64,000 nt of DNA from Thioalkalivibrio nitratireducens DSM 14787 (GTDB lineage: Bacteria; Pseudomonadota; Gammaproteobacteria; Ectothiorhodospirales; Ectothiorhodospiraceae), in assembly GCF_000321415.2 (NCBI RefSeq), contig NC_019902.2, positions 310,001-374,000 of the forward strand, read 5' to 3'. Numbering within the stretch: position 1 is the first letter of the stretch; each line of letters starts with the position of its first letter. Below the pieces are notes generated by a model. The model did not search any database. It was not told where the DNA came from and saw nothing but the letters and a program-made list of their open reading frames with translations. A program made the position numbers and the translations under genes. This document shows positions 3,840 through 18,735 of this stretch, in pieces.

Positions 3840-5054
3840 TCAGGAGGCCTTGCCTGTAGCGGCGCAGACATTCTTGCCTAGCTCCAGCTCGCTGGCCTGG
3901 GCCTCGTCCGGCTGGTCCAGGCCAGCGTTCGCCCGCTTGATGTCGAAGTAGGCGTCCGGGAGTTCAGGGAGGTTCTCCAGAATGTAGCGGTTGAAGGCTT
4001 CCTCGCCGTCCGCCACCTTGGCCAATCCCGGATTCCGCGTCTTCAGCCCACCCAGGTTCGCCTGGTAGCGCCCCTCCGGGTCGGCCACGGTGATATCGCT
4101 GAAATGCCCCGGCAAGACGACGATGTCGTCGTCAAGTTGCATCAGCTCAAGCAGCGAAAGGTACAGCAGCGGCGTCCAGGTCTCCGCCTTGCCGCCCAGG
4201 TCGGGACGCGCGATCGATTCCAGGAACAGGCTGTCACCGGTCAGCAGATAGCGCTTCTCGACCAGGAACGCGACCATGCCCAGGGTGTGCCCCGGGATGT
4301 GTAAAGCCTCGAACTCTGCCTGCCCGACATGGATGGTCTGCCCCGCATGCAGAAACTCGTAACTGATCTGCGCGGGCACCATATCCACCGGGTGAATGGC
4401 GTCATAGGGATGCAGGTGGTACGGAACCTGCCAGCGCTCGCCGAGCATCGGCCCGCCACTCAGGTGATCCGCATGCAGGTGGGTATCGAAAACGCCGATA
4501 ATGCTGGCGTCGTGTCCGGCCACCAGGTCGTGGTAGATGTCGATGTGACGGCCGGGATCGAAGATAGCGGCGCATTGGTCGCTGATCAGCACATGGCTGA
4601 TGCAGCCACGCGCCGGACGCACCACCTGATAGAGGCTGTAGCGCTCTTCCTCCGTTACGCGGCGCCAGTAGTAGAACCGACCCCACGCCTCCATGCCGCC
4701 TTCCAGGTTGACCGCCTCGAAATCCAGATTGCGCAGGGCCTCAGCCACGTAGCTCGAGGTATGTCCCTCGGGACAGACGGCGAGGATGGTGCGGTCCGCC
4801 GGCAGTTCGTCCATCAGGTGCGCGCGGATACCCCTGATCGCCGCCTCTGTCACGTCGTCGTCGTCGGCTTCGGCATCGAGATCGAGCAACTCGAAGTACG
4901 GAATGTTCTTCGTCGGGAGGGGGCTGGGCCCTTCCACCCGCCACTGCGCAAACTCGTCTGCATTGCGCAGGTCGAGGATGAACATCGGTTCGTTTTGAAG
5001 TAAGTGCTCCCAGGCCGAGGCCGGGGTCCAAGCAGTCTCGCGCTTCTTCAACAT
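3840..5054 (-). CDS. Rhodanese / metallo-beta-lactamase (persulfide dioxygenase-like) fusion
   Basis: A 404-residue soluble protein with two domains. Residues about 10-135 are a rhodanese domain (DLRNADEFAQWRVEGP; catalytic loop CPEGHTSS). Residues about 150-345 are a metallo-beta-lactamase fold with THLHADHLSGG, HIPGHTLG, TGDSLF and LPGHF, the metal ligands of ETHE1/glyoxalase-II type enzymes. It probably handles glutathione persulfide or another sulfane-sulfur carrier, joining sulfur transfer to persulfide oxidation. The well-known PRF fusions have the lactamase domain first; here the rhodanese comes first. The gene stands alone, with a long gene-poor stretch upstream. Catalytic assignment is by family; the substrate is inferred. 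Confidence 0.88.
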   Translation of the reverse strand: MLKKRETAWTPASAWEHLLQNEPMFILDLRNADEFAQWRVEGPSPLPTKNIPYFELLDLDAEADDDDVTEAAIRGIRAHLMDELPADRTILAVCPEGHTSSYVAEALRNLDFEAVNLEGGMEAWGRFYYWRRVTEEERYSLYQVVRPARGCISHVLISDQCAAIFDPGRHIDIYHDLVAGHDASIIGVFDTHLHADHLSGGPMLGERWQVPYHLHPYDAIHPVDMVPAQISYEFLHAGQTIHVGQAEFEALHIPGHTLGMVAFLVEKRYLLTGDSLFLESIARPDLGGKAETWTPLLYLSLLELMQLDDDIVVLPGHFSDITVADPEGRYQANLGGLKTRNPGLAKVADGEEAFNRYILENLPELPDAYFDIKRANAGLDQPDEAQASELELGKNVCAATGKAS

Positions 5055-7039: not shown

Positions 7040-7252
7040 GGTGCGCTCACCCGGTCACGCTGTTCGACGCCAATCGAGGATCGTCAACCCTCCGCCTATC
7101 GTGAGACGTTGCCGGCCGTGACCTCAAGCGCCGGAACCAGCGATGAGAAAACATGATGTCACGCGGCGATCTGCTGCTCGAACCAGTCCTTGATGCCGCC
7201 CTCATAGTCATGGACATTGGTGAAACCAGCTTCTTCGGGCTTCCTGGCTGCC

Positions 7253-7260
7253 GTCGGTGA
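7253..7260. repeat. Target-site duplication, left copy (GTCGGTGA)
   Basis: Eight bases, GTCGGTGA, directly outside the left inverted repeat. The same eight bases stand directly outside the right inverted repeat at 9611-9618. Eight base pairs is the duplication length typical of the IS66 family. Confidence 0.92.
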
Positions 7261-7282
7261 GTATGACTTTAGCTGCCTGAAA
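7261..7282 (+). repeat. Left terminal inverted repeat of the IS66/DruA element
   Basis: Twenty-two bases beginning GTATGACTTTAGCTGCC. They are the reverse complement of the right end except at the fifth base (G here, C in the reversed right end). Confidence 0.92.
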
Positions 7283-7310
7283 CGATCGGCGCAGGGGGAG
7301 GCGGTGTGTG

Positions 7311-8638
7311 TCAGGCGGCTTCGGCTGCGGGTGCCGGGCAGATAAACGCGAGGGGCTCGCCGACGATGGCTGCTTCGGTGAGCGTGCGCAGGAAGGCGAG
7401 CGGCTCGTGTCCGCGGAGTTCCGCCGTGCGGAACAGGGACAGCAGCAGTGCGTGAGTTTCGGCCCCGCTTCGGAGCGGTTCTGCTGGCAGACCTTGCGGG
7501 TCAGCACGGGCGTGCGCATCTCTTGCTCGCCGCGGAAGTTGGCCAGGCGTTTGATCAGGCGCGTGGCATCGGCATCCGCGAACCGGGTGGCGATCAGGTC
7601 GTTGAGGCGTTGGTGCAGGCGTCGTTTGCGGCGTTGGTAGACGCTCGGTTCCAGTTCGGGGCGGCGCAGCTTCAGCCGGATCGCATCCTGGAACAGGCGT
7701 TGGATGCGGCGTCGGGCGTCGCGCCAGGGGATCGAGGTATTGCGTTGATCGACCCGGCGCAGTTCGGCGAACAAGTGGAACAGGCAGCGTTGTTTGGCCC
7801 AGGTCTCGACCGCGTTGTAGGCGGCGTAGAAGTCACAGACCAGCAAACCGTCGAAGATTTCGCCCAGAACGGCCAAGACCACCGCGGCATTGCGCCGGCG
7901 TTCGATCCGGAAATAGGCCAGGTCTTCGGTGCAGAAGGCCCAGAGCCAGTGGGTGGTGCCGTTGACCCGCCAGCCGGTTTCGTCGGCGTGCAGAACACCG
8001 GCCTGGCGGATCGCCTGTTCCAGCTGCACCCCATAAGGCGCCAGTGTCTGGCCGAGCCGGATCCAGGACTGGGTGAGTCCGCCGGCACTGACGCGCAGCC
8101 CGAACAGCTGCTGGAGAATGGTGACCAAGTTGCCCACGCTGATGCCGAGACGGTAATGCAGCCAGGCGCTGTAGATGATGACATTCAGGCCGAGCGTCGC
8201 GCGCGGCAGCGCCGCAGTGACCGTGGGCGTGACGATCTTGCGGCAGTGACCACACCAGTGGCCGTGGACGGTGTGCGCATGGGTGTTGACGGTTCCCGGT
8301 TCCAGATCCTCGATGAGACGGGTATGGGAACGGATGGGGGTGCCGACGGGGTGGCCGCAGTCGGGACAGGTCTCGAGCCGGTGTTCCACCGGCGCGTCGA
8401 TGGTCTGCGGTACCGGCCGGCAAGCCCCGGGATGGCCCGCCTTGCGCCCGGGCTTGCGTCGGCGCCGTGGCGCCGCCGGCTTCTTGAAGGGTGCGACCGT
8501 CGCCGAGGGTTGCAGTGGGTCCGCGGCGGGGGCCGACTGTCGGTCCCACTGCTCGGCCTTGTGCGCGAGTTCGAGGATCTTGGCCACGGCCACCTCGCGC
8601 GGCCCGTCGAGCAGCGCACAGGCCTCCTCGCGGGTCAT
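7311..8638 (-). pseudogene. IS66-family transposase (TnpC-like), inactivated
   Basis: Starts at the ATG at 8638, overlapping the end of the DruA-like gene by four bases. It has an N-terminal helical part, a basic KPAAPRRRRKPGRKAGHPG linker, a zinc-binding region (CPDCGHPVG ... CGHCRK), and the DDE core with the first aspartate in HADETGWRV and the second in DFYAAYNAV. After ANFRGEQ the sequence jumps to MRTPVLTRKVC. About 20 residues that normally include the NNxAE catalytic glutamate are missing. A further frameshift lies near 7455, after which the usual C-terminus (LLLSLFRTAELRGHEPLAF ... ICPAPAAEAA) continues to the stop at 7311. Confidence 0.88.
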
Positions 8639-9533
8639 GGTTCCAGCAGCGCCGGCCGCCAGCGGCGCGTCAGCGGCCGCACCCAGACGTCCTTGGACAC
8701 GGCATGTGCCCGGTAGGCATTGCCGCGCTTGGCATGGCCCCGGGTCTGGCCCAGGCACTGCCAGTTGGCCGCCCGATAGCAGGTGCCGGCAAAGCGCGCC
8801 GGATCGACGAAGGTCTCCGCCAGCACGATGCGTTGCCCACCCGGGCCTGCCACGCGGCGGCAAGCCCGCGCAGCGACTGCCCCAGCACCTTCGAGGCCAG
8901 ATGGCTCTACACGGCACCCACGGCAGGATCAGAAAGCGGACGTTGTTCACCACCCCGACCAGACGCTGGCGCCGCAGCTCGGGCGTCCAGCCGATCCAGC
9001 GGTCCCGACAATCGACCTTCCAGGCGGCACTGGCCCAACCCAGGCAGGCCACCACCTGCCCGTCGAGCCACACCAATTGCTTGAGGTACGCGCCCACTAG
9101 CTTGGGACGCCCCAGGTAATGGTGGTGATGGACCAGATAATCCCAGAGGTAGCGCTCGGGCCCCTCGGCCGCGCGGATCTCGAGCGCCCCATAGGTATCC
9201 ACCCGCCCGGCCAGCGGCCGCTCCTCGAACAGCGGCCGTTGCCGATAATCCGGGACCGCGTGATTGTTCTTCTCCCGCAATCGCGGCGGCAACTGAATGT
9301 GCCCGGCCTCTTCCAGGCGCAGCAGCAGATCCCGCGCGGCGTACTCCTTGAGCGCCCCGTTCGCCTGCCGCCCAGTCCCACCCCTCACACAGTCGTCGGG
9401 CGATCGCGCTGCGACCGCGGGCCGCTCCCTGTGCCGTGGCCGCCTGCGCGATCTGCGCGCGAATCGTCGCGAGATCCTCGGCACGCACATCGCGGCCTCG
9501 GTAACGCAGCAGCACCCTGTCGCTCTGTCCCAT
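8635..9533 (-). pseudogene. DruA-family (DUF4338) protein gene, frameshifted
   Basis: Four frame segments join into one DUF4338 protein, the family that includes DruA of the Druantia anti-phage system. Segment one from 9533 gives ARGRSAIARRLCEGWDW. Segment two gives ANGALKEYAARDLLLRLEEAG, YLVHHHHYLGRPKLVGAYLK, CRDRWIGWTPELRR and NNVRFLILPWV. Segment three gives HLASKVLGQSLRGLAAAWQAR. Segment four gives GQRIVLAETFVDPARFAGT and CYRAANWQCLGQTRG. Frameshifts fall near 9375, 8915 and 8850. It lies inside the IS66 element directly before the transposase, so here it behaves as a transposon gene rather than a stand-alone defence gene. Confidence 0.85.
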
Positions 9534-9588
9534 GGGCACCACACGCTACCAGCAGATGCGCCGTGACGCCAGCCCCCTGTGCCACTTT

Positions 9589-9610
9589 TTTCAGGCAGCT
9601 AAAGTGATAC
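9589..9610 (-). repeat. Right terminal inverted repeat of the IS66/DruA element
   Basis: Twenty-two bases ending AGCTAAAGTGATAC, the mirror of the left end with one mismatch. The inner 17 bases are identical. Confidence 0.92.
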
Positions 9611-9618
9611 GTCGGTGA
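9611..9618. repeat. Target-site duplication, right copy (GTCGGTGA)
   Basis: Identical to 7253-7260 and in direct orientation. Removing one copy restores the rhodanese reading frame. Confidence 0.92.
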
Positions 9619-9843
9619 GGCATCGCACTCGAAACTGGCACAGTCAACCACGATCGTGCGCTTCTTCCCACTGGCCACGACTTCAACGTGACCGGCAAGA
9701 TCATCGTTTGCCACCGGAATGCTGATCGAGGTACGGGTGTGCTGCTTGTTGAAGTTTTCGCATGGCAGCACATTGACGAGAATGAAGTCCGCATGTTCGA
9801 CGTCGTTCATTCGCCTGAGTGTGTCGCGATCGATGCGTTTCAT

Positions 9844-18635: not shown

Positions 18636-18657
18636 GGTGTACGGACTCCGTGAGTCT

Positions 18658-18735
18658 GGATGAGCGCCGTTGCATGGTTGAAAAGACCCCCGGCTGAGCC
18701 TGACGGATGTCCGCTGCAGCGCTCCTCAGCCGGGG
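18658..18735 (-). promoter_or_regulatory. SAH riboswitch upstream of ahcY
   Basis: Read on the minus strand, the segment contains GGCTGAGGAGCGCTGCAGCG, then GTCAGGCTCAGCC, then CAACGGCGCTCATCC. These are the three conserved blocks of the S-adenosylhomocysteine riboswitch. The first GAGGAGCGCUGC block pairs partly with AGGCUC to form P1/P2, and the final ACGGCGCUCA pairs back in a pseudoknot-like P4. The 3' block is about 22 bases before the ahcY start, consistent with SAH-switched ON control of ahcY. Placement between metK and ahcY matches other proteobacteria. Confidence 0.92.

Follow-up and report, generated by a model that had tools for sequence, protein, structure and literature searches.

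The window analysed here, a 64,000-nucleotide (nt) stretch of the Thioalkalivibrio nitratireducens DSM 14787 genome (NC_019902.2, positions 310,001 to 374,000), contains an IS66-type insertion sequence that interrupts a rhodanese gene and has two overlapping genes, druA and, after it, tnpC, which encodes the DDE transposase TnpC. The partnership of DruA, a relative in fold of the phage Mu protein Mom, with a transposase is a finding worth following, and from sequence comparison and a structure model we put at roughly 0.55 the probability that DruA is made with TnpC and acts as a Mom-like DNA-modifying enzyme of the transposon. DruA repeatedly accompanies transposases, those of IS66 and others, a point missed by an earlier note made from the letters of this DNA alone.

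The genes of the element were defined from the intact copies L002 and L003 elsewhere in the genome, which encode a DruA of 298 amino acids (aa; Pfam DruA PF14236, E 6.3e-32 in L003) and a 460-aa IS66 transposase, TnpC. The latter (P0002) was over the curated cut-off in both databases searched, with 139.8 bits to Pfam DDE_Tnp_IS66 (1.6e-40, cut-off 23.1) and 238 bits in NCBIfam (cut-off 180). The druA stop and tnpC start overlap by 4 bases (ATGA). Classical IS66 members carry tnpA and tnpB, and there is also a short tnpC-only kind without either, such as the ISBst12 subgroup. No match to tnpA or tnpB was found in L002 or L003 with hidden Markov models (HMMs) built in this analysis (E 1e-3), so the element is not a classical member; it is a short kind of IS66-type transposon with two overlapping genes and no detected tnpA or tnpB. 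A DDE_Tnp_IS66 transposase, inverted ends and 8-base-pair (bp) duplications are common to this element and the short IS66 kind, and the druA that precedes and overlaps tnpC is extra in this element.

The earlier note's 22-bp inverted ends with one mismatch, and the identical 8-bp target duplication GTCGGTGA outside them, were correct to the base (Table 1), and a looser similarity of the ends reaches 38 nt at 84%. The terminal motif, at up to three mismatches, occurred twice in the window and in none of 100 window shuffles, and its eight occurrences in the 4,002,350-bp genome were all ends of the four copies of the element, which excludes chance repeats as their source; the reversed motif had no match in the genome. 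The three further full copies (L002, L003 and L004) are 2408-2410 bp long with identical end bases and are flanked by CATATCAG on both sides of L002, GGGACTTG on both sides of L003, and GAGCGCAT and GAACGCAT, with one mismatch, at L004. All four copies thus have the IS66 family traits of inverted ends and 8-bp target duplications, one duplication with a 1-bp difference. The boundaries fixed for a DruA-carrying IS66 relative therefore hold, and elements of this kind with different ends, the outcome named in the earlier note as adverse, did not appear among the four copies. Towards its end the window copy drops to about 85% identity with the others, so the four are not simple duplicates of each other. 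No full copy was seen in 57 other related genomes, TnpC at E <= 1e-40 matched only its own genome among 398, and a TnpC scan of viral contigs gave no relative.

A DruA scan with nine query sequences returned at least 593 matching stretches and at least 570 relatives, from which the 80 best were retained; since these 80 rank highest against this element's DruA, the share of IS66 among them is biased upward. In 67 of the 80 loci an HMM built in this analysis located an IS66 transposase on the same strand, no more than 700 bp downstream. A downstream frame of 100 aa or more was present at 78 loci, and NCBIfam assigned 63 of these frames to IS66, three to IS1182, two to IS6 and one each to IS1634, ISKra4, ISLre2, ISH6 and IS5, with some overlaps. 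The 67 DruA-IS66 loci, many in metagenome-assembled genomes, were from 14 named phyla plus four loci without a phylum. In searches of phages and plasmids DruA matched no phage but did match two plasmid records. In L078, L089, L090 and L116 druA is enclosed by inverted ends with perfect 8-bp duplications, against 0/231 control joins at up to three mismatches, and six other loci gave rows with four mismatches in the ends and one in the duplication that are probably chance. A first search for ends, placed too near druA, had given only low-complexity matches in one locus. Short relatives had end-like inverted pairs (e.g. 22/22 in L075 and three mismatches in L051 and L052) with no duplication where testable, mostly on draft contigs, that of L051 starting at the end itself.

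The two genes are also coupled in arrangement and descent. ATGA or GTGA was present at the druA stop in 47 of the 67 DruA-IS66 loci, and in 33 of these 47 the start lies in the open frame of the transposase; ATGA was expected about six times (third-position A 0.116, TGA in 53/67 stops) and observed 33 times. Trees of DruA and TnpC built from 55 pairs (this element and 54 of the 67 loci, those with transposase frames under 400 aa being dropped) shared 18 of 52 splits, compared with a mean of 0.2 and a maximum of 2 after relabelling, and the distance correlation of 0.596 was reached in 0/2000 permutations. These excesses over relabelling and permutation speak for long co-inheritance of DruA and TnpC with some exchange of partners.

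Mom of phage Mu (PF25680; PDB 8bv8) was the best PDB row for the DruA model and led by 2 Z units after realignment of Foldseek's top 1000 PDB chains, and profile and family searches with DruA likewise single out Mom. The model is predicted to have a GNAT fold with the catalytic serine position, and the aligned serine and the motif G-x-x-Y-x-A-x-N-[FW]-x(3)-G are common to DruA and Mom, the DruA residues concerned being kept in 80/80 relatives. Three papers mentioning DUF4338 were found, and one of them describes it as a GNAT domain (PMC10853773). The literature search, with most subscription journals outside its reach, found no paper combining DruA and IS66. DruA differs from Mom in having some 110 additional residues at its N terminus, in an identity of only about 18%, and in its location in insertion sequences beside a transposase gene. 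Phage Mu, like this element, transposes. By sequence alone DruA had no relative in PDB (best E 0.48 for the single protein and none at E 1 for the profile).

Several results weigh against a Mom-like enzyme made together with the transposase. DruA of this element (P0001) scored 14.1 bits to Pfam Mom, below the curated cut-off of 27.1, as did that of L051 (11.4 bits), so DruA is likened to Mom and not filed as Mom. The best Pfam Mom match among the 80 relatives had E 1.1e-9, and 35/80 had none at E <= 0.05. Three longer DruA proteins (401-433 aa) did not match Mom at E <= 1, and neither did the DruA of L159, an ISKra4-type element of this genome. R101, D139 and Y149 are active-site residues of Mom, and the position opposite D139, D240, is D in 67/80, E in 12/80 and Q in 1/80. 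The overlap ATGA or GTGA was absent from 20 of the 67 linked loci, and in 14 of the 47 that have it the start was outside the open TnpC frame. On the DruA tree (FastTree, midpoint root) the short IS66 kind occupies scattered positions, so partners were probably exchanged at times. Finally, DruA was found in 0/30 IS66 loci with flanks of up to 1.5 kb (the best match per genome for 30 of the 68 matching genomes in a 150-genome draw, this genome's own DruA copies being outside the sample), by which IS66 with DruA looks to be a minority and IS66 can do without DruA.

The alternative role for DruA that survives best, though unlikely, is that it is a non-catalytic accessory of transposition, a DNA-binding helper replacing TnpA and TnpB in short elements. 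The missing tnpA and tnpB in L002 and L003 agree with this, as do 14 of the 67 linked loci having at least 450 bp upstream without a detectable tnpB (12/67 being too short to tell), although on the transposase tree at least L095 and L102 of the 14 group with relatives that carry tnpB, and these two may have lost theirs. The first 71 residues of the DruA model, predicted as three helices and two short strands, would also suit a helper, but the N-terminal part had no significant family or PDB match (best Pfam AlkZ-like, 0.0079, in 2/28), so that a winged-helix reading of it is a guess. In 41/67 loci, moreover, a tnpB stands upstream of druA (confirmed by Pfam in 5/5 frames tested; the frame before it, tnpA by position only, had no Pfam match in 5/5), so DruA is not simply a replacement for TnpA and TnpB, and the Mom-like serine and motif residues kept throughout the 80 relatives also count against a non-catalytic role. 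It is rather improbable that DruA is an ordinary GNAT enzyme acylating a protein, TnpC or a host factor, and not DNA, since the lead of Mom by 2 Z units, the searches that single it out and the shared motif all point elsewhere. Least credible is a passenger, a fragment of Druantia defence acquired by chance. In its favour, the Pfam family is named for Druantia, IS66 without DruA is common, and two other DruA proteins, transposon-linked or lone (L045 and L028), match PADLOC DruA models weakly (1.4e-5 and 5e-5). Against it, the element has only two genes, whose products P0001 and P0002 match no PADLOC family at E 0.01; DruA is linked to IS66 with shared tree splits; and this genome also pairs DruA with transposases of the ISKra4 and IS4 types. 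With Druantia type I DruA (PF14236/DUF4338) the protein shares the Pfam DruA domain, and it differs in its length of about 300 aa and the lack of a PADLOC match; no DruB-DruE was seen inside the element, to which the search was confined and where only druA and tnpC are present.

Other transposase families are also associated with DruA. The genome has 18 DruA matches, some being pieces of one gene and four belonging to the IS66 copies. At L159 druA is followed by an ISKra4 transposase in an ISKra4-type element, of which L147 and L166 resemble, by eye, damaged kin. Eight further places comprise five with a 784-aa frame and three with similar scores but shorter frames; the one of these eight that was scanned encodes a 784-aa protein, DruA fused to an IS4/Tn5-type transposase. 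DruA transposons are abundant in this genome and involve three types of transposase: IS66, ISKra4 and the DruA-IS4/Tn5 fusion (L159, L212). Elsewhere DruA is fused to an ISAs1 transposase in L046, on a Thiodictyon plasmid (over the family cut-off), and in L031 (below it), and adjoins an IS4-type transposase in L028. In the ISAs1, IS4/Tn5 and ISKra4 elements DruA is joined or fused to a transposase as here, but to families other than IS66. A DruA remnant in frame with an IS4/Tn5-type DNA-binding domain lies about 3 kb before the window (L214:525-1829, C1:305800-307800), and a 401-aa DruA gene in another genome (L144, G273) stands beside a frame resembling TniQ by eye. We tentatively propose that DruA may be a transposon-borne family of Mom-type DNA modification enzymes that transposases of different families (IS66, ISKra4, IS4/Tn5 and ISAs1) acquired on several occasions, by which insertion sequences would mark or protect their own DNA, with Druantia DruA as a relative co-opted for defence.

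For the element itself, TnpC would bind the ends and perform DDE strand transfer, and DruA would be translated from the same message and would modify a base of the DNA, the adenine amino group being the likeliest site by analogy with Mom. The boundaries and copies of the element, the linkage, overlap and co-inheritance of the two genes and the likeness in fold are shown by the data; the base modification, its purpose and any dependence of transposition upon it are inferred. DruA might mark the element and its intermediates, which would then survive restriction in a new host, or it might mark the ends or the target, whereby transposition would be timed or steered.

The window copy itself is damaged. 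Among the three sister copies tnpC is open in all (460 aa) and druA in two (298 aa), that of L004 being broken by two single-base length changes. In the window copy druA is broken by similar changes, while tnpC has lost 54 bases and carries a frameshift further on. If the single-base length changes are set aside, several of which fall in short G or C runs, the first 1000 columns of the alignment match intact L003 at 100% identity, so a sequencing error is possible for the broken druA. That the break is a sequencing or assembly error, and the copy less decayed than it appears, is a serious though somewhat doubtful option, in line with the length changes in L004. The 54-base deletion stands against it and, with the about 85% identity, indicates that the last part is truly diverged. 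The window copy is probably no longer mobile by itself and would rely on the intact copies.

Table 1. Features of the interrupted rhodanese gene and the inserted element (positions are those of the window).
Feature	Position	Strand	Basis
DruA-carrying IS66-type element, 2350 bp	7261..9610	-	ends common to 4/4 genomic copies
Terminal inverted repeat, druA (gene-start) end	9589..9610	-	22 bp, one mismatch to opposite end
Terminal inverted repeat, tnpC (gene-end) end	7261..7282	+	22 bp, pairs with 9589-9610
Target duplication GTCGGTGA, copy 1	9611..9618	.	
Target duplication GTCGGTGA, copy 2	7253..7260	.	
druA, frame broken by single-base length changes	8636..9533	-	extent by homology; Pfam DruA on part of frame 7208-9544, E 9.3e-19
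tnpC (IS66 DDE transposase), damaged	7311..8638	-	extent by homology; start overlaps druA stop
Interrupted rhodanese gene, 5' part	9611..9843	-	joined frame, Rhodanese match, homologue
Interrupted rhodanese gene, 3' part	7159..7260	-	joined frame, homologue

The claim that a single DruA-carrying element had inserted in a rhodanese gene (7159-9843, stop included) was upheld, as was the restoration of a 108-residue rhodanese on excision, the flanks joined with one duplication giving an open frame of that length that matched Rhodanese (PF00581, E 1.8e-8, 35.1 bits, cut-off 22.2). An intact 108-residue homologue of 62% identity that covers the insertion point was found in one of 29 other genomes of the genus (E <= 1e-8) and itself scores Rhodanese (E 4.4e-15), the neighbours of its gene in G018 differing by eye; the other 28 had no match at that threshold. 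A true empty site, with identical flanks but lacking the element, was neither found nor looked for. Because of this homologue the restored frame is a real gene, though a rare one, and related flanks without an intact rhodanese frame, the other adverse outcome, were not seen. The rhodanese was simply knocked out by the insertion. Another 17 rhodanese-domain matches remain in the genome, two frames having two each, so no loss of sulfur metabolism follows, and the loss of a sulfurtransferase, as the earlier note worded it, was overstated for a gene that is rare in the genus; its observation is confirmed and its sulfur conclusion is weak. One of the 17 lies at 4680-5024 (minus strand), within a frame of 414 aa that is a few kb away from the interrupted gene.

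The insertion sites of two further copies were inspected. L002 (C1:2928621-2931030) is inserted within a spacer of a CRISPR-like array with a 28-bp repeat and a period of 60, and a second array of a different repeat type is near it (L002 flanks 1091-1488 and 3935-4924). The letters AGCTGCCTG are common to the element ends and the CRISPR-like repeat beside L002; we attribute this to chance, since L051 and L052 lack those letters at their ends. L003 (around C1:834025-836434) is flanked by open frames of 490 and 500 residues and, by eye, the frames not having been scanned, seems to split one long helicase-like frame. Apart from the element, the window contains a SAH riboswitch at 18655-18733 (minus strand, 63.1 bits).

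Insertion sequences are usually thought to carry only what moving requires. If the reading of DruA given here is true, simple transposons chemically mark DNA via a Mom-like enzyme co-translated with their transposases, the marking could explain how transposons pass restriction or time their moves, and DruA would gain a concrete, testable activity.
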